Assembly: GCA_017745235.1 (NCBI GenBank)
Contig: JAGHZU010000004.1
Coordinates: 186,001-250,000 of the forward strand
Direction of reading: 5' to 3'
DNA: 64,000 bases
From: Caulobacter sp.
GTDB taxonomy: Bacteria; Pseudomonadota; Alphaproteobacteria; Caulobacterales; Caulobacteraceae
Part shown: positions 33,839 through 49,418 of the stretch, piece after piece
Layout of the letters: the number at the start of each line of letters is the position of its first letter
Numbering within the stretch: position 1 is the stretch's first letter
Position numbers and translations under genes: made by a program
The notes under the pieces: model-generated
What the model was told of the DNA's origin: nothing
Databases searched by the model: none
What the model saw: the letters and a program-made list of their open reading frames with translations, nothing else

Positions 33839-33859
33839 AAATGCGAACGACTCGCATTT
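33839..33859. promoter_or_regulatory. Fur-type palindrome before TonB receptor
   Basis: AAATGCGA-ACGAC-TCGCATTT is a palindrome with perfect 8-base arms ending 29 bases before the receptor start codon. The TGCGA/TCGCA form fits alphaproteobacterial Fur-controlled operators. A weaker GATT-TTAAG-AATC palindrome near 33774-33786 could serve the divergent DUF4198 gene. Confidence 0.65.
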
Positions 33860-33888
33860 ACATGATAACGAGGGGTCTTCAGGTTTCC

Positions 33889-36138
33889 ATGTCCCGCATC
33901 AAGTTCGCCTGCCTCGCCGCCGCGTCGGCCTCAGCCCTCCTCCTGGCCCACGGCGCCCTGGCCGCCGAATCCGACGCCGCCCTGGACAGCGGCGAGGTCG
34001 ACAAGGTGACGGTCACGGCCACCCGCTCGGAGAAGAAGCTGCAGGACGCGCCGGTGACCGCCAGCGTCATCACCGACGCCGAGATCGAGGACGGGCTGGT
34101 CAAGGACATCAAGGACCTGGTGCGTTTCGAGCCTGGCGTGTCGGTGCGCCGCGCCCCCGCCCGCTTCACCGCCGCCGGCGCCTCGACCGGCCGGGACGGC
34201 AACGCCGGCTTCAATATCCGCGGCCTGGAAGGCAATCGCGTGCTGGTGCTGGTTGACGGCGTGCGGGTGCCCGACGGCTACGCCTTCGGCGCCCAGAACA
34301 TGGGCCGGGGCGACTATGTGGACCTGGACCTGCTGAAGTCGGTCGAGATCGTGCGCGGCCCCGCCAGCGCCCTCTACGGCAGCGACGGCCTGGCCGGCTC
34401 GGTCAATTTCTTCACCAAGGACCCGTCCGACCTGCTGACCGGCGGCAAGGCCTTCAGCCTGCGCGGCCGGGTGGGCTACGCCTCGGCCGACGAGAGCTGG
34501 ACCGAAAGCCTGGTCGCCGCCGGCAAGCAGGGCCGCTGGGAAGGGTTGATCGCCTACACCCGCCGCGACGGCGAGGGCCAGAAGACGGCCGGCACGAACA
34601 ATTCCGCCAACACCGACCGCACCACCGCCAACCCCGAGGACAACCAGTCCAACGCCGTCCTGGCCCGCGTCGTCTACACGCTGAACGACCAGACCCGTTT
34701 CCGTCTGACCTACGACCACCTGGACAGCGACACGGACTGGACGGTGCTCAGCGCCATCGCCAAGCCGCCGCTGGCCTCGACCAGCGTCATCGGCCTGACC
34801 GCCTTCGACAAGGTGCGGCGCGACCGGGTCAGCTTCGACCATCGCTTCACCGGCGGCCAGGGCTTGGTCCGCTCGGCCACCACAACTGTCTACTACCAGG
34901 ACAGCACCACCCGGCAGTACTCGGCCGAGGATCGCAACACCGCCGCCGACCGAACCCGCGACGCCACGTTCGACAACAAGGTCTGGGGCGCGGCCATCGA
35001 GCTCCACAGCGACACGACGATAGGCGGCGTGGCCAACAGGTTCGTCTGGGGGGGCGACGCCTCGATCACCCGCCAGGAAGGCGTACGCAATGGAACCGTC
35101 CCGCCCGCCGGCGAAGTGTTCCCCACCCGCGCCTTCCCCAGCACCGACTACACCCTGGCCGGCGCATATGTGCAGGACGAGTTCTCGCTGGGGCCGGTGA
35201 CCTTCTATCCCGCCATCCGCTTCGACTACTACAAGCTGGAGCCCAAGAAGGACGCTCTGTTCACCGCCAACACGCCGGCCAGCCAGAGCGACCGCCACGT
35301 CTCGCCCAAGCTGGGCGTGGTGTGGAAGGCCACCGACCTGGTCACCGTGTTCGCCAACGCCGCCGTGGGCTTCAAGGCCCCCTCGCCTTCGCAGGTGAAC
35401 AACGGCTTCGCCAACCTCGTCTCCAACTACATGTCCATCTCCAACCCGGACCTGAAGCCCGAGACCAGCGAGACCTACGAGGTCGGCGTGCGCCTGAACC
35501 GCGCCCGCTGGAACGTCAGCGTCACGGGTTTCACCGGCAAGTACGACGACTTCATCGAGCAGATCCAGGTGCGCGGGACGTTCACGCCCACCGATCCGGC
35601 GGTCTACCAGTATGTCAACCAGACCAAGGCCGAGATCACGGGGGCGGAGGCCCGCGCGGCGTTCGACCTCGGCGCGGGCTTCACACTGCAGGGCGCGGCC
35701 TCGTACGCCCGCGGCAATTCGGAGAACAACGGCAAGAAGGCGCCCCTGGTCTCGATCGATCCGGTCAAGATCGTGACGGGCCTGTCGTACCGCGATCCCG
35801 CCGGCCGCTTCGGCGGGGCGCTGAACGCCGTGCGCTCCGACCGCAAGTCGGCCGGCCGCTCGGGCGTCAGCTGCAGCCTGACCCTGGCCGGCCCGCCGCC
35901 GGTCACCCTCAGCGGCTCCGATTACTGCTGGATGCCCTCGGCCTTCACGGTGTTCGACGTCACCGCCTACTGGAACCTCACCGACAACGTCACCCTGCGC
36001 GGCGGCGTGTTCAACGTCACCGACCAGAAGTACGCCTGGTGGAGCGACGTGCGCGGCCTGGCCGACAACTCCACCGTCAAGGACGCCTACACCCAGCCCG
36101 GGCGCAACTACGGCGTCTCGCTGGCGGTCAAGTTCTAG
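33889..36138 (+). CDS. TonB-dependent receptor, heme/hemoglobin type
   Basis: This is a 749-residue outer-membrane receptor with a signal peptide (MSRIKFACLAAASASALLLAHGALAAE). The TonB box region VDKVTVTATRSEKKLQD is followed by a plug domain with NIRGLEGNRVLVLVDGVRVP and VEIVRGPASALYGSDGLAG. The 22-strand barrel ends in VRGLADNSTVKDAYTQPGRN and a final Phe. That ending is characteristic of the heme/hemoglobin receptor subgroup. A Fur-like operator upstream supports iron control. A heme ABC transporter is not present nearby. ATG 33862 is an alternative start. Confidence 0.9.
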   Translation: MSRIKFACLAAASASALLLAHGALAAESDAALDSGEVDKVTVTATRSEKKLQDAPVTASVITDAEIEDGLVKDIKDLVRFEPGVSVRRAPARFTAAGASTGRDGNAGFNIRGLEGNRVLVLVDGVRVPDGYAFGAQNMGRGDYVDLDLLKSVEIVRGPASALYGSDGLAGSVNFFTKDPSDLLTGGKAFSLRGRVGYASADESWTESLVAAGKQGRWEGLIAYTRRDGEGQKTAGTNNSANTDRTTANPEDNQSNAVLARVVYTLNDQTRFRLTYDHLDSDTDWTVLSAIAKPPLASTSVIGLTAFDKVRRDRVSFDHRFTGGQGLVRSATTTVYYQDSTTRQYSAEDRNTAADRTRDATFDNKVWGAAIELHSDTTIGGVANRFVWGGDASITRQEGVRNGTVPPAGEVFPTRAFPSTDYTLAGAYVQDEFSLGPVTFYPAIRFDYYKLEPKKDALFTANTPASQSDRHVSPKLGVVWKATDLVTVFANAAVGFKAPSPSQVNNGFANLVSNYMSISNPDLKPETSETYEVGVRLNRARWNVSVTGFTGKYDDFIEQIQVRGTFTPTDPAVYQYVNQTKAEITGAEARAAFDLGAGFTLQGAASYARGNSENNGKKAPLVSIDPVKIVTGLSYRDPAGRFGGALNAVRSDRKSAGRSGVSCSLTLAGPPPVTLSGSDYCWMPSAFTVFDVTAYWNLTDNVTLRGGVFNVTDQKYAWWSDVRGLADNSTVKDAYTQPGRNYGVSLAVKF

Positions 36139-36207: not shown

Positions 36208-36283
36208 CGTGCCCGATTTTATGAAAGCGCGCCCAGAACAATGGTTCTTGCCGCCCAGGGCCTAGGTGACTAGGACCGCGACC

Positions 36284-37153
36284 ATGGACACGCAAACCGT
36301 CGCCGACCGCTATATCCTGATCCTGCAATGCCCCGACCGGAAGGGCGTGGTGGCCGCCGTCTCCAGCTTCCTGGCCGACAACGACGCCTCGATCGTCGAA
36401 AGCAGTCACTTCAACGACGGCCTCGCCGACCAGTTCTACATGCGCACGGTGTTCCGCGCCGACGGCGACATGCCCAAGATCGAGGCCCTGCGCCAAGGCT
36501 TCGAACTGATCGCCAAGCGCTTCGGCATGACCTGGTCGCTGCACGACGCAGCCATCAAGCCCAAGGTGCTGATCGCCGTCTCCAAGTTCGGCCACTGCCT
36601 GTTCGACCTGCTGCACCGGTGGCGCGCGGGCCTGCTGCCGGTCGAGATCGTGGGCGTGATGTCCAACCACGAGGACATGCGCTCGTTCGTGGAATGGAGC
36701 GGCCTGCCCTACTTCCACCTGCCGGTGACCAAGACCACCAAGGACCAGCAGGAGGCCGACTTCCTGAAGCTGGTCGACGACCTGGACGTCGATCTGGTGG
36801 TGCTGGCCCGCTACATGCAGATCCTCTCGCCCGCCCTGTGCGCGCGCCTGTCGGGCAAGTGCATCAACATCCACCACTCCTTCCTGCCCAGCTTCAAGGG
36901 CGCCAAGCCCTATCACCAGGCCTACGAGCGCGGCGTGAAGATCATCGGGGCCACGGCCCACTACGTGACCACCGACCTGGACGAGGGTCCGATCATCGAG
37001 CAAGGCGTCCATCGCGTGGACCACAGCCATACGCCCGACGACCTGGTCACACTGGGCCGCGACGTGGAGTGCACCGTGCTGGCCCGCGCCGTCACCTGGC
37101 ACGTCGAGCACCGGGTGCTGATCAACGGCGCCAAGACGGTCGTCTTCGACTGA
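36284..37153 (+). CDS. purU: Formyltetrahydrofolate deformylase
   Basis: PurU hydrolyses 10-formyl-THF to formate and THF, balancing one-carbon pools. The 289-residue protein has an N-terminal ACT domain (RYILILQCPDRKGVVAAVSSFL) and a C-terminal formyl-transferase fold with the catalytic Asn-His-Asp set in INIHHSFLPSFKGAKPYHQA and TTDLDEGPIIEQ. A start at 36284 (MDTQTVADRY) is preferred over the in-frame start six codons upstream. Length and motifs are normal. Monocistronic. Confidence 0.96.
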   Translation: MDTQTVADRYILILQCPDRKGVVAAVSSFLADNDASIVESSHFNDGLADQFYMRTVFRADGDMPKIEALRQGFELIAKRFGMTWSLHDAAIKPKVLIAVSKFGHCLFDLLHRWRAGLLPVEIVGVMSNHEDMRSFVEWSGLPYFHLPVTKTTKDQQEADFLKLVDDLDVDLVVLARYMQILSPALCARLSGKCINIHHSFLPSFKGAKPYHQAYERGVKIIGATAHYVTTDLDEGPIIEQGVHRVDHSHTPDDLVTLGRDVECTVLARAVTWHVEHRVLINGAKTVVFD

Positions 37154-38237: not shown

Positions 38238-39041
38238 TCAGGCCGGCGCGACCAGCCCCAGCGTCGCCGCCACCGGCAGCCATAGAGCAAGGTCGGCGAT
38301 CACCGCTCCGGTCTCGCGCCCGCTGGCCTGGGCCGCCCGCGCCGCGGCGGCGTGGACGTCCTGGCCCTCGCCGCCCAGCGCCTCCAGCCAGGCGAAGCGC
38401 CACGCCGGCAGGACATGCGTGCTCACCCGGTAGTGGCTGCGCGCCACCGCCACGCCGCAGGGCTGGGCCGGCGGCGGGTCGATCGCTCCGCTTCGTTCCA
38501 CTGCGGCCAGCACCGGTCCGGGATCGAAGTCCAGGCTCAGCAGCCGCACGCTGTCGGGCCGGCGCAGCCGTGCGCCCGGAATCAGCATCAGGTCCGCCGC
38601 GCCGGTGAAGGGCGCCGCCCGCTCCAGCCCCGACGCCCGCTGCACCTCGGCTCGCGCCCGGTCCAGCTGCGCCAGCTGAGCGGGCAAGGCCGACAGGGCG
38701 TCGGGATCGTCCTCGGCCGAGGGCCGGGTGGCCTCCAGGTAGTCGGCGAAACGCTCGCCGAACGCATAGAGACTGGGATCGCCCGACGGGTGCTCGGCGA
38801 TGTAGCCGGCGGCGAAGAGGTCAAACACCTGCTCCCCGGCCAGGGCGCGCAGGCACGGGAACTCGGCCGTCAGGCACTCCAGAAGCCGCGCCTGGTAGCC
38901 GCGCGCATACAGCATCAGGCGCCGGGCGGCCGTCAGGCGGTTGTCGCCCACGACAATGTCCTCCAGCCCGATCGGCGCCGCCTGGCCCAGGATCGCGCCC
39001 TGCATCCAGCGCTGCAATTCGGACAGGTTCGGCTCAGCCAT
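38238..39041 (-). CDS. DUF2063 partner protein of MNIO enzyme
   Basis: This is a 267-residue protein of the DUF2063 family (HvfC/BufC/MbnC-like), recruitment partners that present peptide substrates to DUF692 enzymes. The N-terminal helical domain has [40 protein letters not shown] and [10 protein letters not shown], the family pattern. A smaller C-terminal part carries [20 protein letters not shown]. It overlaps the DUF692 gene by eight bases and is the last gene of the operon. Its partnership with the adjacent enzyme is inferred from family knowledge. Confidence 0.85.
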
Positions 39042-39933
39042 GGACGCGGATCGCCCCTTCCGCCCTGTCCGCCCTGTCCGCCCCCAGGCCGGGCGATCGT
39101 CCCTCCCGTACCAGCCGCGCCTTGGCCAATTCGGCCAGCAGATCGGGCCAGGCCGGGATCTTGGCGTCCCATTCCAGCAGGGTCGAGACCCCGCCCGTGC
39201 GCGCCTGGGCCCGGGCGTACAGCGGCCAGACCGCATCGGGCACCGGGGCGTCATGGGTGTCCAGCAGGTGCGTGCCCAGGTCGCTGGGTCCCGCCAGATG
39301 CACCTGCACGATGCGCTCGGCCGGCAGGGCGTCGATATAGGCCAACGGGTCGAAGCCGTGGTTGAAGGCGCTGACATGGACGTTGTTGACGTCCAGCAGC
39401 AGGCCGCAATCGGCCGCCTCGGCCATGCGCGCCAGGAACTCCCACTCCGGCATCTGCGAAGCGCGGAAACGCAGGTAGGTGCTGGGATTCTCCAGGATCA
39501 GCGGCCGCCCGAGGCGATCCTGCACGGCCTTGATCCGGTCGACCACGTGGTCCAGCGCCGCCTTCGTCAGCGGCATGGGCAGCAGGTCGTGGGTGTTGAT
39601 CCCGGCCACGCCCGTCCAGCACAGATGGTCGGAGATCCAAGCCGGCTTCACCCGCTCGGCCAGGGCCGCCAGCTTGTCCAGATAGACCCTGTCCAGCGGG
39701 TCGGCGCCGCCGATCGACAGCGACACCCCGTGCATCACCACCGGCCGATGCGCGGCCACCACCTCCAGCACGTGGGCGGCGTAGCCGGCGTGGTCGAGGA
39801 AGTTCTCGGTGATGATCTCGAACCAGTCCACGCCCCAGGCGGACGGCGCAGCGGCCATCAGGTGCGCGAAGTGCGGTTCGCGCAGGCCCACGCCGTCGCC
39901 CAGGTCGGGCAGTCCCAGCCGCGCCGCCGCCAT
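39034..39933 (-). CDS. DUF692 multinuclear iron oxidative enzyme (MNIO)
   Basis: This is a 299-residue TIM-barrel protein of the DUF692 family (MbnB, TglH, HvfB, BufB), which use two or three irons and O2 to rework cysteines of partner peptides. Metal-ligand motifs are present: [78 protein letters not shown] and DTHDAPV. The ATG overlaps the stop of the ferritin-like gene (ATGA), and the gene itself overlaps DUF2063. The product made here is not known. Confidence 0.93.
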
Positions 39934-41915
39934 CAGGTGGACGGCGGGAAGACGAGCCGCAGCGGATCGGCCGCCGGCGGCTTCTCGGGCACGGTCTTGT
40001 GGCGGTTCTTCATCACTTCGCGATAGGCGCGATAGGCCACGTCGTGCACCTTCTCGCCCTTCCTGTAGTTCAGCACCCCGATCGGTTCGGAGCTCCAACC
40101 GCCCTTCCCCGGCGCCTGATCGGTGGCCGGCACGAAGTCGTAAAGCTGCATGAAGCCCTTCTCGGGGAAGAGCTGGGCCGCCGAGATCGGTACGGCGCAG
40201 CCGCCGAAGCCGCCGCACTTGTTGTCGCTGGGCGCGGAATACAGCGTCGGGTCCGGACGGCCGCAGCCGCCGCCCACCACAGCGCCGCCGCTGCGCGCCA
40301 CCACCGCCGAGCCGCAGTTGCCCCCGCCCGTGGTGGGCTGGACGAAGCCGCAGCCGCCCTGGGCGTGACACAGGTTCGAGCCTCGGCAAGTGTGGAAGAT
40401 CGTCACCTCGGCGCAGCTGTTGGCCCCCGCCCCGTCCAGGTCCAGGCCCTGGCAGGCGTGATAGAGCTTGTCGGCGATCACCGGGGCCAGGCCGATCGAC
40501 AGGTCCGGCGTGCGGCCCAGCACCGCCCAGGCGATCGACATGCGGTCGCCCGAGCCGGCCATCGAGGGGAACGGGAATAGCACAGGGCCAGAGGCCGGCG
40601 GGTTCCAGTATTCGTCCAGCACCTTGGTCACGCCCGCGATGGCGCCGATGATGGCCTGGCTGAGCAGCTTGTGGCTCTCCTCCCGCTTGTCGGGCAGGTT
40701 CATCGCGTTCAGCGCCGCCGCCGTCTCGTCGGGCGTGGGCAGGCCGTAGGGATTGGCTGGATCATAGTCGGCCGTCATCAGGTCCTTGGCGGTCCACTGG
40801 CCCACGCGGGCCAGCCACTGGGTCCAGGTCTCGACCTGGGGCAGCAGGTCCAGCACCTCCTGGAAGCGCTCGTAGTGGTCCTTGGCGTCGTTCGCGAAGC
40901 GAGCCACCGCGTCGGCCGAGGGGATCTGAACGCCCTTGTCGTTGTAGCTGGGATAGTCGGCGCGCAAGGCCGTGTCTGACGGCTGGTACTTGGGCTTGAC
41001 CGCCTGCAGCATCATCGGCCGCTTCTTGATCTCGCTGCCTTCGCCCTGGTCGGTGATGGCGTCCATCATGTCGACCATCTGCTGGAAGGCGATGGCCTTG
41101 TCCGTGGTGGCGATGGTGGTCTCGAACCCCATGAACTCGCGCATGGGGTGGCCCGGCGAGGAGAAGCTGTTGAACAGATCGTTCTGCTTGGCCGTATCGG
41201 TGAAGGCCTTGTCCCACAGCGTCGTGCCGTCGCTGTAGGGCAGGCTCAGATAGTCGTAGTAGCACTGGTACATCCAGCCGATCGTGCCGAACAGCGGCAG
41301 GGGCTGGCCTTCCTCCCAATCGTCGAACGGGGCCTTGGGGAAGTAGTCCTTCACCTTGCCCGGCTTGATGTTGATGCGCGCCTTGTCCTCGGGCTGCTCG
41401 ATGGCCAGGAACAGGCGCACGATGTCCTTGGACAGCGGGCCCACATTCACCGCAACGTCCTCGTGGGCGATGGTGTCCTTCAGGTCGATGATCCCGGGGA
41501 CGACGCTCTTGTCCGGTCCGTAGCAGGTCCAGCCGTTGATCTCGTCCTGCAGCGGCGCGCCGGTGAACATCGGCGCCTTCACGCCGACGACCGTGGCCAT
41601 GTTGGCCGCCATCTGCAGGTGCAGCATCTCCTGGATGAACACCGAGAAGACGATGTTGAAAGCCTGCTCGTTGGCCGTCTTGGGATTGGCCGAGGTCTTG
41701 GCGCCGGGCCACAGGCGTCCCTTGTAGAAGTCGTTCCCCTTGCCCGTGATCGCGTGCATGCCTTGGATCGAATACAGGCTGGTCATGTAGAGCGGGATCG
41801 TGAACAGCTCGACATTGACCGCCATCTGGGCGATCGCCTGCAAGGCGGCCAAGTCCTTGTCCTTCAACGACGGATCGCGGGCGACCTGGGCGCTGGCGCT
41901 GAGAGTACGGGTCAC
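39933..41915 (-). CDS. Ferritin-like protein with cysteine-rich segment, possible MNIO substrate
   Basis: This is a 660-residue soluble protein. Near the N-terminus is a ferritin-like helical region ([20 protein letters not shown], then [20 protein letters not shown]), with the Glu and His of a di-iron site. The rest is unrecognised except for nine cysteines between residues 488 and 573, in clusters such as [17 protein letters not shown] and [11 protein letters not shown]. The start is taken as GTG 41915 because GGAGGA precedes it; an in-frame ATG at 42017 would add 34 residues. No signal peptide. Translational coupling to DUF692 suggests the cysteine segment is the enzyme's substrate (inference). 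Confidence 0.75.
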
Positions 41916-42025
41916 GACATCCTCCGACAGATCTGGCTGCACGCCGCGCGCTCGTCGGAGCTGGCGGCTGATGGCGACCGGCGACTCACGTCCGATCGCC
42001 ATCAGCTTAGGTTGCATCAACCATC

Positions 42026-42046
42026 AATCAACATTGAAGGTTGATT
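42026..42046. promoter_or_regulatory. Inverted repeat/promoter of the ferritin-like operon
   Basis: AATCAAC (42026-42032) and GTTGATT (42040-42046) are perfect arms around seven bases. On the minus strand, TTGATT and TAAGCT lie 16 bases apart just downstream, a possible -35/-10. The transcript would start near 42000, which fits the GTG 41915 start. Confidence 0.5.
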
Positions 42047-42059
42047 CTTCGCACGTCTT

Positions 42060-45000
42060 CTACAGCAGGATGTCCGAGGCGCTCAGCGTGCCGGTCACCT
42101 TCAGGGCCAGCACGAAGTCGGCCACGCCGTCCCCGTTCACGTCGGCCGAGATGTGGTGATAGCCCGAGGCGTCGGCCGTCTGGATGATCAGCTGACCCGC
42201 CACCTTCGAGAAGCTGTTGACCACGGTGAAGGCGTCATCGGCTGGCGTGGCCGAGTTGGCGTCGATCGGCCTCAGGTCGATGCGGTCGCCCTCTGAGCTG
42301 TTGAAGTCGAAGATCAGGTCCGTGGCGTAGGGCGCGCTGTCGGTCACCGCGGTGAACACGAAGGTGTCAGCGCCCGCGCCGCCGACCATGAAGTCCGCGC
42401 CGCCGCCGCCTGTCAGGGTGTCGTTGCCGTCCAGCCCGTACAGGATGTCGTGGCCGGCCCCGGCGACCAGGACGTCGGCGATGCTCTGGCCCGATCCGTC
42501 GCCCATCACGATGAAGGGCTGGTTGGCCCCGCCGCTGGTGATGAGGTCGGTGGTCTTCAGGTCCAGGCCCTGGACCACGATGGCAGACTGAGGAACCCCG
42601 CTACTGTCGAAGGCCGAATAGATGAAGCTGCTGCCGCCGTAGCGGCCCAGGATGATCTTGCCGCCATCCATCGCCGAGATGTCGATCTTGTCCTTGCCCG
42701 TCTCCAGTCCGACGATCAGGTCGAAGCCGGCATAGGTCGAGTTCGACAGGCCGTCATAGCGGAAGGTGTCGGTCCCGCTGCCGCCGTACAGGATGTCGGC
42801 CCCGTCGCCGCCCACGAGGAGGGAGGTTCCCGTGCCGCCGACCAGAATGTCCCGGCCAGCGCCCCCGGTCAGGTTTTCCGTGCCGGCGTTGGCGTAGATG
42901 GTCACGCCGGCTTCGGTGCCGCTGGTGATCAGGTCCCCGATCTCGACGTCGCCGGTCACCTTCACCAGGCTCTCGTTGGCGCCCGACCCGAAATAGACCC
43001 AGGTCTCGGCGCCCACGTGGGACAGCACGATCCGACCGCCGTCGGCGGCCGAGATGTTCAGCTTGTCCACGCCGGACTGGAAGTCGGTGATGACGTCGGG
43101 AGCCGCGGTCGCGGAATCGCCCACGCCATAGACGAAGGTGTCGGCGCCCGCTCCGCCCGTCAGGCGATCGGCCCCGGAGCCGCCGCGCAGGACGTCCGCG
43201 CCGGCCGATCCGACGATGGTGAAGCCGAAGCCGGCCACGCCCGTCAGGATGTCGGTCACCTGCAGACCCTGGCCCTTGGACAGGATCAGGCTTTCGGCCG
43301 TGCCGTCGCCGTTCTGGTCGATATAGAGGCGCTGGTCGGTCCCGTCGGTGGTCAGCGTCACGATGGTGGAGCCGGTGATCACCGGCGCGATCTGAAGCTT
43401 GTCCACGCCGTGCTGGAAGTCGGTGATCGTGTCGTAGGCCGCCACCGTGCTGTCGTTGACGCTCTCGTAGACGAAGGTGTCGGCCCCGCCGCCGCCGGTC
43501 AGGGTGTCCGCCCCGCCCCTGCCCGTGAGCGTGTCGCCCGCGCCAGCGCTGATGATGGTGTTGGCGCCGGCGTCGCCCGTTCCCGAGCCGGTGACGGTGA
43601 TCGTCAGTTGGGCCGTCGCCGAGGCGGTGGACGGGTCCTTGATCGTGTAGTCGAACTTGTCGGTCACGACCTGGCCGACGACCAGCCCCTCGTGGTTGGC
43701 CAAATAGCTGTAGGTTCCGTCCGGATTGATCGTCAGTTGGCCATAGGCGCCATTGACCACCGCGCCGCCGGCCGAGACCGCCTGGTCCACGTGGGTGGCG
43801 TTGTAGGCGACATTGGTCACCGTCAGCGTGTTCAGCGCGTTGTCGATGTCGCCATCGTTGGCGCGCACCGTGCCCGTGACGGTCAGCCGCTGGGTCACGG
43901 CATTGGCGTCGTTGGCGGCGCTGGGCGCGTCATTGACGTTGGCGATCGCCCCCGTCGCGGTGCTGAGGACGGCTTCGGCCGTGCCGTGCTGGTCGGTGTA
44001 GGTCACCCGCACCCGGATCGCGGCGCCGACATCGGCGTCGCCAAGGGTGTAGGTCGCCTGGTCGGCCGCGCCGATGCTGACGAAGCCCGAACCGGTGTCG
44101 CGCTGCCAGTCGTAGTGCAGCGTCCCCAGGCCGTCGACATCGGCCAGGGTCGAAACCGCCGTCAGGATTTGGTCCTCGACCGCCGCGCCGGTGATGGCCA
44201 CCGCGCCGGTCGGGGCGTCATTGACGTTCGCCACCACCGCGGTGGCGGCGCTGGTCTCGCTTTCAGCCACGCCCTGGCCGTCGGTGTAGCTGACCACCAC
44301 CCGGATCGTCTTGCCGACATCGGCGTCGCCCAGGGTGTAGGTCGCCTGGTCGGCTGCGCCGATGCTGACGAAGCCCGAACCGCTGTCCCGCTGCCAGTCA
44401 TAGTGCAGCGTCCCGAGCCCGCCGGGATCGGCCAGGGTCGAAACGGCCGTCAGGACCTGGTCCTCGGTCACCGTACCGGTGATGGTCACGGTTCCGGTGT
44501 GCGGGCCGTTGGCTGGCAGCACGTTGGCGGTGGCGGCGCTGGTCGCGGACTCGGCCGTACCGTGAGCGTCGGTATAGCTGACCACCACCCGGATCGTGGC
44601 CCCCAGATCACCGCCCACCAGGGTGTAGGTCGCCTGGTCGGCCGCGCCGATGCTGGCGAAGCCCGAGCCGGTGTCGCGCTGCCAGTCGTAGTGCAGCGTC
44701 CCCAGGCCATCGGCGTCGGCCAGGGTCGAGGTGTCGGCCGTCAGCGTCTGGCCGACGTTCGCCGGACCCGTGATCGACGCCCCGCCGGTGTGGGGGTCGT
44801 TGACGTTGGCGATGACCGCCGAAGCGCTGCTGGTCGCAGACTCCGAGAAGCCCTGGCCGTCCGTATAGCTGACCACCACCCGGATCGTGGCGCCGACGTC
44901 GGCGTCGCCCAGGGTGTAGGTCGCCTGGTCGGCCGCCCCGGTGCTGACGAAGCCCGAACCGGTGTTGCGCTGCCAGTCATAATGCAGCGTCCCCAGCCCG

Positions 45001-48000
45001 TCGACGTCGGCCAGGGTGGAGACGGCCGTCAGGACCTGGTCCTCGGTCGCCGTGCCGGTGATCGACACCCCGCCCGTATGCGGGTCGTTGACGCCGGCGA
45101 TCGAGGCGGTGGCCGAGCTGGTGACGCTGTTGGCGAAGCCCTGGCCGTCGGTGTAGCTGACCACCACCCGGACCGTGGCGCCGACATCGGCGTCGCCCAG
45201 GGTGTAGGTCGCCTGGTCGGCCGCCCCGGTGCTGACAAAGCCCGAACCGGTGTTGCGCTGCCAGTCGTAGTGCAGCGTTCCAAGGCCGTCGGAGTCGGCC
45301 AGGGTCGAGGTGTTGGCCGTCAGGACCTGGTCCTCGGTCGTCGTGCCGGCGATCGACACCCCGCCCGTCGGCGCGTCGTTGCTGGCCACCACGGACGCCG
45401 TGGCCGAGCTGGTCGCCGACTCCGCCGTGCCGCCGGCGTCGGTGTAGCTGATGATAACACGGACCACGCCGCCGATGTCGGCGTCGCCCAAGGTGTAGGT
45501 CGAGGCGTCGGTCCCGACGTTGATGAAACCGGAGCCTGTGTTGCGCTGCCACTGATAGTGCAGGGCCCCGATGCCGTCGGGATCGACCAGGGTCGAAACC
45601 GCCGTCAGGACGCTGTCCTCAGCCGCCGTGCCGGTAATGCTCGCGCCGCCGGTATGCACGTCGTTGACGCTGGCGATGTTGACGTTGACCGAGCCGCCGC
45701 CCGACAGCGCCCCGCCGGTGCCCTGGCCGCCGCCGTCGTTGAAGCTGTAGTTCAGCGAAACCGAGGCGGGCGGCGCGTCGCTGCCGTTGGTGTAGGTGAT
45801 GTGGTCGATGATCTCGTTGACCAGCGCCGTGGTCGCGGTCGCGCCCAGGCTGGTGAAGCTGATCGTCAGCACTCCGCCGGTCGAGGTGAAGGTGGCGACG
45901 GCCAGGCCCCCGACCAGAATATCGCCTCCGACGACGGTGAAGGACGCCCCGCTCGTGTCGAAGGCGAAGCTGTCATTGGCGTTGGCGACGGCGCGCTGGA
46001 CCGTGAAGGTGGCGCCGGCATAGTCGCCGGCCCCGCCGTTGCGGGCGTCCAGGTCCACGTCGGAGACGGTGACCGAGCCCAACAGGATCGCCGCAGTCTG
46101 TTCAGTGGCGTTGACCGCGGTCGCCGTGGCCGGAACCACGGGCGCGTCGTTGACGGGGTTGATCGTGGTGTTCAGGTCCACCCCGGCGCTGCTGTAGTGA
46201 GTCTGGCCGCCATTGGTGGTGATGTCGACGACCGTCCCGGAGGCGATCGCCCCGCCCGAATTGTCGATCAGGTGGGCCGTCAGGGCCGGCGCCGGGCCAT
46301 TGAAGTCCGCGGCGGGCACGAACCGCAGACGGGCCGTGCCCGCCAGCAGGACCGCGGAGCTCAGGCTGGGCGAAACGATCGTGGTCCAGCTGGCGCCGCT
46401 ATTGAGGGAATATTGCCAGACACCCTCGGTGGAGGAGGCGTCGCCGGTGATGGCCACACCGCCCAGGCCGTCGCCATCGGGATCGCTGAAATTGCCGCTG
46501 AACAGCGAATTGACGGTCACCCCGACGTAGTTGGTCAGGTCCTCGTCGATCGCGTTCAGGGTGGCCGAGCCGCTGGCGATCGGCGCGTCGTTGGTCGGGG
46601 TGACCACGACGTTCAGCGTCATCGCCGTGCTGTACGGCGTGGAGCCGCCCACATTGGTCAGGTCGGCCGTCTGGCCCGTCGTGACCGCGCCGGCCGAGTC
46701 TTCGATCATCGAGACGGTCAGCGACGGCGCCGTGCCGCTGTAGTCCGCCGCCGGCACGAACCGCACCAGGGTGCTGGCGCTGATGTAGAAGGCGTTGGAG
46801 GTCGAGACCGCCGGCAGGTCCTGCCAGGTCGAGCCGTCGAAATACTGGTAGACCCCCTGGGCCGCCGTGGCGGCGTTGGCGGTCACCGCCACGCCGGCGA
46901 ACAGGTTGGCCGACGAGCCGCCCGCCACCGTGTCCTTGGCGTCGCTGAAGTGGCTGCTGAACAGCGACGTGATCGTCTGTCCGGCGCCGGGGGCGGAATC
47001 CTCGGCGACCGAGGTCAGGCTGACGGCCGCGCCGTTGATGACGACCGGGGCGTCGTTCACGTCCGTGACGGTGTGGCTCAGCACCACCGTGCCGGAGCTG
47101 AACACGGTCGTACCGCCGTTGGTGGTGGTGTTGACGATCGCGCCGTTGGTGATCCCGCCGGCCGAGCTGTCGACCAGCCGCACCGTCAAGGTCGGCGCTG
47201 CGCCGTTGAAGTCGGCGGCCGGTGCGAAACGGATTGCGGTCAACGCCGACAACTCGACCGCAGCCGAGGTTGAGGCCGCGCCGATGTTCACCCAGGTCGA
47301 ACCGTTCCAGTACTGCCACTGGCCCGTGCCGGCGGTGGAGCCGTTGGCGACCACCGCAACGCCCGCGATGCTGTCGCCGTCCGCGTCGCTAAATTGGCTG
47401 GCGAACAGGGAAGAGATCGTGTTGGCGAACCCGCTCGGGCTGACGTCCTCGTTGGTCGCCGCCAGGCTTTCCGTGCCGTCGCCCGAGACGACCGGAGCGT
47501 CGTTGATGCCGATGATGGTGATCGTGTAGCCGTCGGTGTCGGTCAGGGCGCCGCCCGTGCCCGTCGAACCCCCGTCGCTGGTGACCACTGTCAGGGTGTC
47601 GGTCCCGCTGACATTCGTATTGCCGTGGAACAGCAGGCCGTTGGCGGCCGCCAGGGTGGTGTTGATGGCGTTGGCCGTGCCGGTGATGGTCACCGAACCG
47701 GTGCCGTTGCCGGTGATGTTGCCCGCGGTCAGGCCGCTGGCGACGTTGGTCCGCAGGGTCAGTATGCCCTTGGTCACGCTCAGGGTGACCGTCATGGTGG
47801 CGGAAGCCGGGTTGGCGTCGACGTCGCTGATCTGCAGGCCCGTGACGGCGATGTCGGCGTTTTCGCTGCCCGTGGCCGAGATCGACGCGCTGTTGACCGG
47901 GGCGTCGTTGACCGCCGCGATGCTGATCGTGCTGGTGGTGGAGTTCACCGAGCCGGCCAGCACGCCGATCGTGCCGTCGCTGATCGTCCAGGTGATCGTG

Positions 48001-49418
48001 CGGGTGGTGTTGGCGCCGTAGTTCGTCGGGTTGTTACCGGTGGCCCAATAGACCAGTCCGGCAAGAGCGCTCTGGTAGTGAGCGATGGTGTCCAGACCGC
48101 TCAGGGTCAGGGTCTCGGTCGCCGCGTTCCAGCTGAGCGTGATGCTGGTGCCGGCGATCGTGCCGCTGATCTGCTGGCTGGCGCCATAGCCAAGGTGGTC
48201 GTCGGCGGTGCTGTTCTCGTTCGAGCTGAACGTGCCGCCGGTGATCTGCACCGTTGCGCCGGTCAGGTAGCCGCCGTCGTTGTCGGTGATGGTCGGAGCG
48301 CCGCTCAGCAGGGTGACCTGGGTCCCCTGTTCGGTCGCGGTCGCGCCGGACCCGGTGACAGTGATCGCCGCCAGGTCGGCGAAGGTCATGCCCTCGATCT
48401 GCGCGCCGTTCTGGGTGAGGCCGGCCGAGACCGTGCGGATCAGGCTGGCCGATGTGCCGCCGGCGTCCAGCTGGAAGACGTAGATGACGTCGTCTGTCGA
48501 GTTGCTGTCGGTCTCGCCGCTCTCGACATAGATCTGGCGCGTCGACTGATCGAACGTCATGTCGCCGCCGTAGAAGACGTTGGCGGGCATTCCGGTCAGA
48601 GTCAGCTTCGTGGGCGTGCCGCCCGATGCGTTCTCGCTGATGTACCAGATGGCGTTGTCGTTGGCGTCGTAGCCGGCCGTCCCCGACGGATGCAACGAAC
48701 GGGTCGTGAAATAGAGCAGGTCGGTGGTCTCATCGACCTCGACGTCGATGATCTGGCCGTTGCTGCCGTCGCCCGGGAACAGGCCGCCGGCCAGCATGTT
48801 GGTAGCGGCGTTCGGATTGCTCAGGTCGAGGCGATACAGACCCACGGTCAAGCCGTCGACCCGCTCACTGTAGAACAGGCGGCCGCCGGCCACGATTGTG
48901 CGGTCGAGCGCGAAGTCCTGCGGGTCCAGGACCTTAAAGCCGCTAACGTCTGCCCGGTTGTCGGTGTCGGCCGTGGTGATGTAGCCGTTGTCGGTCAGGG
49001 CGCCTGCGGCGTCGTAGGAATAGACCTTGATGCCGGTGATGGCGCCGTTCGGCGTCCCGGAGCCGTCCTGCACGCCGACATAGATCTTGCGGTTGATCGC
49101 ATCGACCTCGATCGTCTGGACGATGAGATTGTCGGCGAAATCGATCACGGTGGTCGGGGCCGCCGAGCTGTTGATCGACCCGCGCACGAGATAGGCGTGG
49201 TCGTTGATCTCGTTGCTCAACAGCGCGAAATAGAAGCCCGTGGCGGTGTCGACGCCCAGGTCCCCGACGAACGAGCTGATGAACTTGTCGTCGCCCGTGC
49301 CGGCCGCGCCGTTGCTGACGACGGTCGTCTGGCCGGTGCCGTCGTCATTGATCCGGACCAGGCGCGTGTCGGCGTCGCCGCCCTCGGTCAGATACCACAT
49401 TTGGCCGGAAAACGGCAT
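42060..49418 (-). CDS. Giant repeat protein with RTX C-terminus
   Basis: This is a 2452-residue acidic protein without a classical signal peptide. Residues 1 to about 360 look like a beta-propeller (YYGGDMTFDQSTRQIYVESGE-type blades). Cadherin/VCBS-like beta modules ending in NDAPV follow. Six tandem Ig-like repeats of about 96 residues occupy residues 1252-1828, then comes a VCBS module. Several RTX-type calcium-binding stretches (GGADTLTGGGGADTFVY) lead to a C-terminus ending TGTLSASDILL. This is the layout of large type I-secreted adhesins. No secretion ABC/MFP/TolC genes adjoin. The start has SD GAAGGAC. Confidence 0.88.
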   Translation of the reverse strand: MPFSGQMWYLTEGGDADTRLVRINDDGTGQTTVVSNGAAGTGDDKFISSFVGDLGVDTATGFYFALLSNEINDHAYLVRGSINSSAAPTTVIDFADNLIVQTIEVDAINRKIYVGVQDGSGTPNGAITGIKVYSYDAAGALTDNGYITTADTDNRADVSGFKVLDPQDFALDRTIVAGGRLFYSERVDGLTVGLYRLDLSNPNAATNMLAGGLFPGDGSNGQIIDVEVDETTDLLYFTTRSLHPSGTAGYDANDNAIWYISENASGGTPTKLTLTGMPANVFYGGDMTFDQSTRQIYVESGETDSNSTDDVIYVFQLDAGGTSASLIRTVSAGLTQNGAQIEGMTFADLAAITVTGSGATATEQGTQVTLLSGAPTITDNDGGYLTGATVQITGGTFSSNENSTADDHLGYGASQQISGTIAGTSITLSWNAATETLTLSGLDTIAHYQSALAGLVYWATGNNPTNYGANTTRTITWTISDGTIGVLAGSVNSTTSTISIAAVNDAPVNSASISATGSENADIAVTGLQISDVDANPASATMTVTLSVTKGILTLRTNVASGLTAGNITGNGTGSVTITGTANAINTTLAAANGLLFHGNTNVSGTDTLTVVTSDGGSTGTGGALTDTDGYTITIIGINDAPVVSGDGTESLAATNEDVSPSGFANTISSLFASQFSDADGDSIAGVAVVANGSTAGTGQWQYWNGSTWVNIGAASTSAAVELSALTAIRFAPAADFNGAAPTLTVRLVDSSAGGITNGAIVNTTTNGGTTVFSSGTVVLSHTVTDVNDAPVVINGAAVSLTSVAEDSAPGAGQTITSLFSSHFSDAKDTVAGGSSANLFAGVAVTANAATAAQGVYQYFDGSTWQDLPAVSTSNAFYISASTLVRFVPAADYSGTAPSLTVSMIEDSAGAVTTGQTADLTNVGGSTPYSTAMTLNVVVTPTNDAPIASGSATLNAIDEDLTNYVGVTVNSLFSGNFSDPDGDGLGGVAITGDASSTEGVWQYSLNSGASWTTIVSPSLSSAVLLAGTARLRFVPAADFNGPAPALTAHLIDNSGGAIASGTVVDITTNGGQTHYSSAGVDLNTTINPVNDAPVVPATATAVNATEQTAAILLGSVTVSDVDLDARNGGAGDYAGATFTVQRAVANANDSFAFDTSGASFTVVGGDILVGGLAVATFTSTGGVLTISFTSLGATATTALVNEIIDHITYTNGSDAPPASVSLNYSFNDGGGQGTGGALSGGGSVNVNIASVNDVHTGGASITGTAAEDSVLTAVSTLVDPDGIGALHYQWQRNTGSGFINVGTDASTYTLGDADIGGVVRVIISYTDAGGTAESATSSATASVVASNDAPTGGVSIAGTTTEDQVLTANTSTLADSDGLGTLHYDWQRNTGSGFVSTGAADQATYTLGDADVGATVRVVVSYTDGQGFANSVTSSATASIAGVNDPHTGGVSITGTATEDQVLTAVSTLADVDGLGTLHYDWQRNTGSGFVSTGAADQATYTLGDADVGATIRVVVSYTDGQGFSESATSSASAVIANVNDPHTGGASITGPANVGQTLTADTSTLADADGLGTLHYDWQRDTGSGFASIGAADQATYTLVGGDLGATIRVVVSYTDAHGTAESATSAATANVLPANGPHTGTVTITGTVTEDQVLTAVSTLADPGGLGTLHYDWQRDSGSGFVSIGAADQATYTLGDADVGKTIRVVVSYTDGQGVAESETSAATAVVANVNDAPTGAVAITGAAVEDQILTAVSTLADVDGLGTLHYDWQRDTGSGFVSIGAADQATYTLGDADVGAAIRVRVTYTDQHGTAEAVLSTATGAIANVNDAPSAANDANAVTQRLTVTGTVRANDGDIDNALNTLTVTNVAYNATHVDQAVSAGGAVVNGAYGQLTINPDGTYSYLANHEGLVVGQVVTDKFDYTIKDPSTASATAQLTITVTGSGTGDAGANTIISAGAGDTLTGRGGADTLTGGGGADTFVYESVNDSTVAAYDTITDFQHGVDKLQIAPVITGSTIVTLTTDGTDQRLYIDQNGDGTAESLILSKGQGLQVTDILTGVAGFGFTIVGSAGADVLRGGSGADRLTGGAGADTFVYGVGDSATAAPDVITDFQSGVDKLNISAADGGRIVLSHVGAETWVYFGSGANESLVKVTGDVEIGDLITSGTEAGVTIYANAGTENLTGGAGRDILVGGTGTSLLVGGDGADILYGGSGTDTFRYDGLSNSTYAGFDLIVGLETGKDKIDISAMDGGKIILGRYGGSSFIYSAFDSSGVPQSAIVVQGLDLKTTDLITSGGANQPFIVMGDGSGQSIADVLVAGAGHDILYGLDGNDTLTGGGGADFMVGGAGADTFVFTAVTDSAPYATDLIFDFNSSEGDRIDLRPIDANSATPADDAFTVVNSFSKVAGQLIIQTADASGYHHISADVNGDGVADFVLALKVTGTLSASDILL
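43935..45665 (-). repeat. Six tandem coding repeats of about 290 bases
   Basis: The region encodes six head-to-tail modules with the consensus TLADxDGLGTLHYDWQRNTG and AADQATYTLGDADVGATIRV. The inner copies are so similar that DNA stretches of tens of bases recur unchanged, so recombination could change repeat number. The first copy (nearest the N-terminus) is the most diverged. Confidence 0.9.

Follow-up and report, generated by a model that had tools for sequence, protein, structure and literature searches.

A ferritin-like protein with a conserved cysteine segment as candidate substrate of an MNIO (DUF692) and DUF2063 enzyme pair in Caulobacter sp.

In a 64,000-nt stretch of DNA from Caulobacter sp. 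(assembly GCA_017745235.1, contig JAGHZU010000004.1, positions 186,001-250,000 of the forward strand; the whole stretch is hereafter called the window), we identified an overlapping three-gene operon on the minus strand, in which a ferritin-like gene is followed by a gene for an MNIO (DUF692) enzyme and a DUF2063 gene. The best overall explanation, which we consider likely, is that this operon makes a ferritin-like di-metal protein whose flexible cysteine (Cys) segment serves as the substrate of the MNIO and DUF2063 proteins, and that the finished segment binds metal. A sequence-only reading of the same DNA had proposed that a Cys segment inside a large ferritin-like protein is the substrate of this enzyme pair, and the proposal is supported as far as sequence reaches. 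The genes, the conservation of the segment, its association with MNIO genes, fused and split architectures, and a dedicated MNIO clade were all observed. The MNIO family of enzymes is large and growing fast, and its characterized products are peptides; the system described here suggests that enzymes of this type may act in the maturation of a large metal protein as well as of small peptides.

Operon organization and gene products

The ferritin-like gene (39933..41915, minus strand; GTG start at 41915, stop codon included) encodes 660 amino acids (aa), including the internal Cys segment proposed as the MNIO substrate. It is followed by the gene for a 299-aa MNIO (DUF692, BufB-type; 39034..39933, minus strand), the proposed Cys-modifying enzyme, and by the gene for a 267-aa DUF2063 protein (PME-type 1; 38238..39041, minus strand), the proposed substrate-binding partner. 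The genes had been described as overlapping by ATGA or by eight bases; the 8-base overlap was found at the second junction, whereas the first junction actually reads TGATG, with a 1-base overlap. Longer start codons of the ferritin-like gene are possible at 42002, 42017, and 42020, but the GTG at 41915 is favored because close Caulobacter homologues begin alike (VTRTLSASA or MSRTLSASA) and share a GGAGGA before the start.

A PF12902 ferritin-like domain was assigned to residues 30-296 (41028..41828, minus strand; E-value 3.4e-19, 70 bits against a Pfam cut-off of 22.3), and it includes E36, E96, H99, E173, and E292, which presumably bind metal. The translation and this domain bear out the description of a 660-residue ferritin-like protein with nine Cys between residues 488 and 573 (positions 488, 501, 510, 516, 522, 534, 551, 567, and 573), and no NCBIfam family, including VioB, matched the protein at E<=1. 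The Cys segment (residues 488-573; 40197..40454, minus strand; CQGL...[18 protein letters not shown]...[10 protein letters not shown]) is the proposed MNIO-modified core, and it is characterized by conservation, low confidence in the predicted structure, and a profile match to stand-alone Cys proteins. The MNIO was assigned by its clade (see below) and by matches to PF05114 (E 2.9e-104, 348.4 bits against a cut-off of 25) and to the NCBIfam bufferin maturase family MNIO_BufB (349.4 bits, above the cut-off of 310). The partner matched PF09836 (E 2.3e-18, 66.7 bits against a cut-off of 27.2), a family found in 41 of 41 resolvable partner open reading frames (ORFs), window included (none was resolved at loci L268 and L269), and it scored 29.4 bits against the NCBIfam HvfC equivalog, below the cut-off of 142.

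In the AlphaFold2 model of the ferritin-like protein (54 sequences; predicted local distance difference test score, pLDDT, 83.8; predicted template modeling score, pTM, 0.89), the 10-residue blocks of residues 481-580 had pLDDT averages of 35-67, and confidence was mostly high on either side, including the end behind the Cys segment (residues 581-660). A segment that is disordered in the model yet strongly conserved shows the pattern that would be expected of a modified core. A Foldseek comparison against the PDB returned a single entry at E <= 0.001, namely 3hl1 (CC_0557; E 3.6e-8, probability 1.00, target template modeling score 0.69), and a PDB sequence search returned 3hl1 and one chance-like match. 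The best 12-residue hydropathy within the first 35 residues was 1.68 in the window protein, compared with a median of 1.38 and a maximum of 1.63 in 80 homologues and with 1.86-2.48 in four Buf controls; on this rough test, and given the start region of the AlphaFold2 model, we reject the reading of the protein as an ordinary secreted bufferin.

Conservation and distribution

Relatives were sought across a genome collection using patterns ([ND][15 protein letters not shown]) that lie in the ferritin part and outside the Cys segment. The best 80 of the 159 found were fetched, and they belong to five phyla (Pseudomonadota, Actinomycetota, Bacteroidota, Acidobacteriota, and Ignavibacteriota). The resulting 81-row alignment comprised the window protein, that of locus L008, and 79 of the 80 fetched proteins (L034, with its N-terminus cut, was dropped, and L027 lacks its last residues). 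C488, C510, C516, C522, C567, and C573 were invariant in all 81 rows, and C501, C534, and C551 were kept in 79, 77, and 63 rows, respectively. The cysteines thus withstood the conservation check that the earlier reading had called for, with search patterns lying outside the segment, and the six invariant positions rule out a quirk of one genome. H486, H508, E36, E96, H99, E173, E292, and H347 were also invariant in these rows, and the five putative metal-site residues of the ferritin-like domain were identical in 12 of 12 aligned proteins, including the partners from split operons. Mean identity to the window protein was 0.52 overall, reaching 0.71 in residues 31-110, 0.63 in 487-533, 0.31 in 534-557, 0.80 in 558-582, and 0.40 in 583-660.

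At the genus level, 14 of 75 genomes (own included) matched, 13 of them with full-type genes, the kind found in the window (G178 is cut by a contig end), and one with a type-B gene (G152). The distribution is patchy, since strong matches among 398 phylum-wide genomes were confined to the own genus; a single weak match (G307) proved to be type B. Two Pseudoalteromonas replicons matched at 36.5% identity, and L008, the one that was opened, has the same three genes.

Fused and split architectures

The ferritin-like domain and the Cys segment occur both on one chain and as separate genes. Five of five examined actinomycete loci (G599, G605, G915, G856, and G876) have a stand-alone Cys gene followed by MNIO, DUF2063, and short PF12902 genes, and four other loci (L263 and L265-L267; Caulobacter G152 and three of the Mucilaginibacter order) have a PF12902 gene followed by Cys, MNIO, and DUF2063 genes, so that each of the nine split loci has the stand-alone Cys gene directly in front of the MNIO gene. 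A second fused kind, carrying the type-B Cys domain of G152 and L265-L267, was found at L264, L268, and L269, and a shorter fused kind at L238/L239. PF12902 was found in 5 of 5 ferritin parts tested.

Profile comparison related the fused segment to the stand-alone Cys proteins (probability 97.4, E 3.9e-11) and the latter to Buf2 (probability 93.5 over 32 columns). The BufA2 and DUF2282 profiles gave no match over cut-off for the window ferritin-like protein; the NCBIfam BufA2 model scored 19.7, 16.1, and 15.6 bits on the relatives L267, L169, and L268, below its cut-off of 60, and did not match the full-type L030. Additionally, the actinomycete stand-alone Cys proteins (L163, L164, L165, L167, and L168) are about 200 aa long without an evident signal peptide, and they may be related to the adjamnio-I group of PMC12452194.

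The split operons resemble a set of precursor, MNIO, partner, and extra enzyme, and can be read in another way, in which the ferritin-like domain itself tailors the Cys core as a second enzyme, acting in cis in the fused forms and in trans in the split ones, with a doubly modified core, perhaps later excised, as the product. Borosins, which have enzyme and core on one chain, provide a parallel. PF12902 includes VioB-like enzymes (the type-B fusion L268 scored 32.9 bits against NCBIfam VioB, far below the cut-off of 1250), and the metal-site residues of the ferritin-like domain are kept. We consider such a tailoring role unlikely, because the full-type Cys segment is internal and has the mostly confidently folded residues 581-660 behind it, because neither proteases nor exporters form a recurrent family among the neighbors of the operon (three of 101 flanking ORFs at most for any family), and because the Fe-S domains on other PF12902 proteins, described below, look like functional modules and not like cores. 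Between a functional core and a further tailoring enzyme, these Fe-S fusions incline us toward the ferritin-like domain as a functional core.

Association of the cysteine segment with MNIO genes

The sequence-only reading had placed the long ferritin-like ORF beside an MNIO gene, and this adjacency held in 79 of 81 loci (the 80 fetched and L008), with a DUF2063 gene in 78 of 81; the misses (L027, L101, and L099) all run off the contig, and both loci without an MNIO are at a contig edge. The distance from the ferritin stop to the MNIO start was 3-297 bases (median 24), always on the same strand.

Sampling of PF12902 genes then covered three lineages, with 9 matches among 180 genomes of the Saccharothrix order, 57 among 195 of the Janthinobacterium family, and 23 among 201 of the Mucilaginibacter order. 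All 34 sampled genes with this Cys segment or a neighboring Cys gene were beside an MNIO, whereas none of the 55 genes without either was (tblastn and profile, within the flank examined, which for 43 of the 55 was about 1.5 kb on each side and less at contig ends). Without the three center genomes (G599, G614, and G608), which had been picked as positives, the counts were 30 of 30 versus 0 of 53. The Fisher values (2e-25 and 3e-23) overstate independence because the rows are related by descent, and the comparison is not independent of the 81-locus survey because the 34 positives are partly from the same genomes as the 80 loci. MNIO adjacency as a general habit of PF12902 genes is ruled out by the 55 genes without this Cys segment. 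A six-frame check of these 55 for CxGxNxC gave five matches, none in the PF12902 ORF, two being in one neighboring gene and three in short frames. In one actinomycete genome, two PF12902 genes (L173 and L176; G993:C65) lie about 3 kb apart, and the gene between or beside them, which appears in both loci, holds a CxGxNxC match. In 31 genomes selected because they carry the gene, an MNIO lay downstream of 30 of the 31 full-type genes, and the remaining one sits at a contig end; of 11 further PF12902 genes, two were near an MNIO, both in split operons.

Three of the 55 negatives had a different Cys-rich end, consisting of PF12902 followed by Fer4_19 and CDGSH iron-sulfur (Fe-S) domains (L189, 1381-3438; L191, 1429-3411; L192, 1267-3462), with no MNIO nearby, and fusions of the same appearance are seen in other genomes at L104 and L106. 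PF12902 domains are therefore joined to Fe-S modules where the MNIO is absent and to a CxGxNxC segment where it is present, and a metal module behind the ferritin-like domain has a parallel in these Fe-S fusions.

The Fe-S domains of these PF12902 proteins also bear on a reading in which the Cys remain unmodified and form an ordinary metal site or disulfides, with the MNIO pair acting on a different substrate and the pairing having another reason. A conserved segment rich in Cys and His, with H486 and H508 invariant, could bind Zn or Fe-S. This reading is improbable in view of the joint occurrence of Cys segment and MNIO (34 of 34 versus 0 of 55, with Fe-S fusions among the 55), the position of the stand-alone Cys gene before the MNIO in the split loci, which is that of a bufferin precursor, and the motif kinship with Buf2.

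The true substrate could also be a small precursor that is encoded separately and was missed, either within the locus or at another place in the genome. The same genome has two further MNIO operons (G000:C101:283537-284334 and G000:C156:20358-21149), each behind a Buf1-like precursor as judged by eye, but each of these operons has an MNIO of its own, placed with other Buf1-linked enzymes in the tree. The intergenic gaps flanking the operon are short (about 110 bases at one flank and 60-145 at the other), and when 101 flanking ORFs (crude calls, at most two on each side, 27 loci) were assigned to Pfam families, 108 families turned up, each in three ORFs at most. A precursor hidden beside the operon is ruled out by the short gaps and the lack of a recurrent neighbor family, and a separate substrate at any location is highly improbable. 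The sequence-only reading had named a separate short peptide gene as the finding that would overturn it; no such precursor was seen beside the operon, and the separate Cys genes elsewhere are the stand-alone form of the same domain. In one of the two Buf1-like operons (L001), a DoxX-like ORF follows the partner gene (by eye).

Phylogeny of the MNIO enzymes

A quick tree was built from 138 extracted MNIOs, thinned to 80, and the window enzyme (81 in total), omitting L028, L033, L038, and L044 owing to frame; none was obtained from L027, L101, and L293. The ferritin-linked MNIOs (40 full-type, two short, six type B, and five actinomycete) fell with L284 on one side of a branch with a Shimodaira-Hasegawa-like approximate likelihood ratio (SH-aLRT) value of 99, and outside it were Buf1-, Buf2-, EGKCG-, and TIGR04222-like groups, labeled by eye from the upstream ORFs. 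The ferritin-linked MNIOs thus form their own clade among the bufferin enzymes. Full-type operons were found in Actinomycetota (L036, L047, and L049), and the position of the L036 and L049 MNIOs among alphaproteobacterial enzymes suggests horizontal transfer.

The 30 MNIOs most similar to that of the window in the 398 Pseudomonadota genomes included two from full-type operons (one the window's own) and one of type B. Among the remaining 27, 24 were behind a Buf2-like precursor (by eye), and the others were L296, L298, and L299. The MNIO of L296 (G554) is 61% identical to the window enzyme. A DUF2063-like ORF, judged by eye, comes after it, and upstream no Cys-rich precursor was recognized.

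Proposed mechanism and its weight

In the explanation that we favor, the DUF2063 protein would bind the unmodified ferritin-like protein, and the MNIO would oxidize some or all of the conserved Cys of the segment, most likely to 5-thiooxazoles with loss of four hydrogens each, as bufferin-type MNIOs do. Bufferin-type and oxazolin MNIOs have been reported to make copper-binding 5-thiooxazoles (PMC12452194, PMC13097082, PMC13419390, PMC12538549). The finished segment would remain in the protein as a metal-binding site, with copper as the foremost candidate, and would work together with the ferritin-like domain in the cytoplasm. Modification of the segment by the co-encoded MNIO is very probable. 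By analogy, 5-thiooxazole chemistry has an even chance, and so does joint action of the segment and the metal site of the ferritin-like domain once the protein is mature, while copper as the bound metal falls somewhat short of that. More tentatively still, MNIOs may act here as cofactor maturases, producing a thiooxazole site inside a ferritin-like oxidoreductase (or in a dedicated partner protein when split). Such a copper or mixed-metal center, built from cysteines, would cooperate with the di-metal site and take the place that Fe-S domains have in other PF12902 proteins.

Several observations weigh against this explanation. The missing signal peptide, the protein size, and the internal position of the segment argue against a simple copy of the bufferins: no Sec signal peptide was evident in the window ferritin-like protein by a rough test, and its start region runs into the first domain helix. 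DUF2063-type partners have been reported to accompany precursors with Sec signal peptides (PMC12452194), a link from which the ferritin-like family departs. The fused segment had no Pfam or NCBIfam match, and its own similarity to Buf2 was weak (probability 57.5, 14 columns). Cys-rich ends on PF12902 proteins occur without an MNIO too, as in the Fe-S fusions, and the neighbors of the operon include no other conserved family. H347 was not alignable in the split partners, and the DUF2063 gene was not found at L268 and L269 although an MNIO is there. Finally, the ferritin-linked clade contains L284 (G624:C411), an N-terminally cut MNIO on a small contig with no ferritin-like gene directly upstream. 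The 460-aa open frame upstream of L284 is not ferritin-like in look, and its genome has a ferritin-like gene at the end of another contig.

If the role as cofactor maturases is true, the range of MNIO products would grow beyond metal-binding peptides and take in enzyme cofactors derived from proteins, across at least five phyla. The family also suggests a role for part of the PF12902 proteins. A 2025 survey suggests that MNIOs may modify proteins as well (PMC12452194), and the three-gene operon, with its natural fused and split forms and clear Cys core, makes such modification testable.

Upstream elements and neighboring genes

The inverted repeat noted earlier in front of the operon is real, with 13-nt arms (42016-42028 and 42033-42045) matching at 12 of 13 positions, and it is likely the operator of the operon; together with promoter-like hexamers it occupies 42004..42045. 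The promoter-like sequence (TTGATT-16-TAAGCT, 42031-42004, minus strand; an unscored reading by eye) overlaps the repeat. Compared by eye with nine other Caulobacter loci, the dyad was at the same place in seven, being weaker in L013 and L015, and was absent in L007 and L017. A leader hairpin with 15-nt arms, 14 positions matching, precedes the start codon (41967..42006, minus strand) and was aligned with other Caulobacter leaders; the leader had no Rfam match. GAGTCG was present in the hairpin of seven of eight aligned Caulobacter leaders, with GTTGTC in L005, and the stem differs between L013 and the window, so that covariation is possible (by eye).

Directly upstream of the operon, a gene at 42060-49418 (minus strand) encodes a 2452-aa RTX/cadherin-like protein, and six of nine other Caulobacter loci show the end of a similar gene ahead of the operon (by eye). 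On the other side, the plus strand carries a TonB-receptor-like gene (33841-36138), a formyltetrahydrofolate-deformylase-like gene (36266-37153; both by eye), and an amidohydrolase gene (PF04909; 37241-38125), with no sign of operon membership for these three neighbors.

Comparison with known systems

The statement of the sequence-only reading that no such case was described agrees with our literature search, which covered main texts and was partly swamped by unrelated words: among the matches listed, no MNIO operon with a ferritin-like protein was described, supplements and most subscription papers being outside the scope. The word "ferritin" was absent from the main texts of PMC12452194, PMC13097082, PMC12538549, PMC12257519, PMC13419390, and PMC12710340. 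The search of the PF12902/VioB literature yielded no mechanism for this family. Ferritin-like PF12902 genes were placed near fungal lodA genes in a 2015 study (PMC4417212).

The closest known arrangement is that of the Buf2 (BufA2) operons, which share with the system described here a BufB-type MNIO, a DUF2063 partner, a precursor before the MNIO, CxGxNxC motifs, and six conserved Cys; the order precursor-MNIO-DUF2063, used to recognize bufferins, is that of the window. Buf2 precursors differ in having Sec signal peptides and lengths of 51-367 residues (PMC12452194), whereas the protein described here has 660 aa, a ferritin-like domain, and no evident signal peptide, and the Buf2 MNIOs are in a different clade from the window MNIO. 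Captophorins, the 5-thiooxazole copper peptides such as fontiphorin and oxazolin, likewise combine an MNIO and PME1 (DUF2063) with Cys-rich substrates, but they are peptides, a large group of them with EGKCG repeats (PMC13097082).

A Cys core in a larger protein has already been proposed for TIGR04222 proteins and for Buf/MerC and Buf1/cytochrome c/FGE-sulfatase fusions (PMC12452194). Unlike the protein described here, TIGR04222 proteins are membrane proteins in clusters without DUF2063 genes, and the main text of that source mentions neither a ferritin-like domain nor the fused and split pattern seen here.

The ferritin-like domain is shared with other PF12902 proteins, including CC_0557 (PDB 3hl1), VioB, and the Fer4_19 and CDGSH fusions. 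CC_0557 has 317 aa, unlike the 660-aa window protein, and the long PF12902 genes in our sample, which by their size are probably VioB, had, like the Fe-S fusions, no MNIO in the flank examined, unlike the system described here. The Fe-S fusions nevertheless resemble the window protein in carrying a metal module behind the ferritin-like domain.

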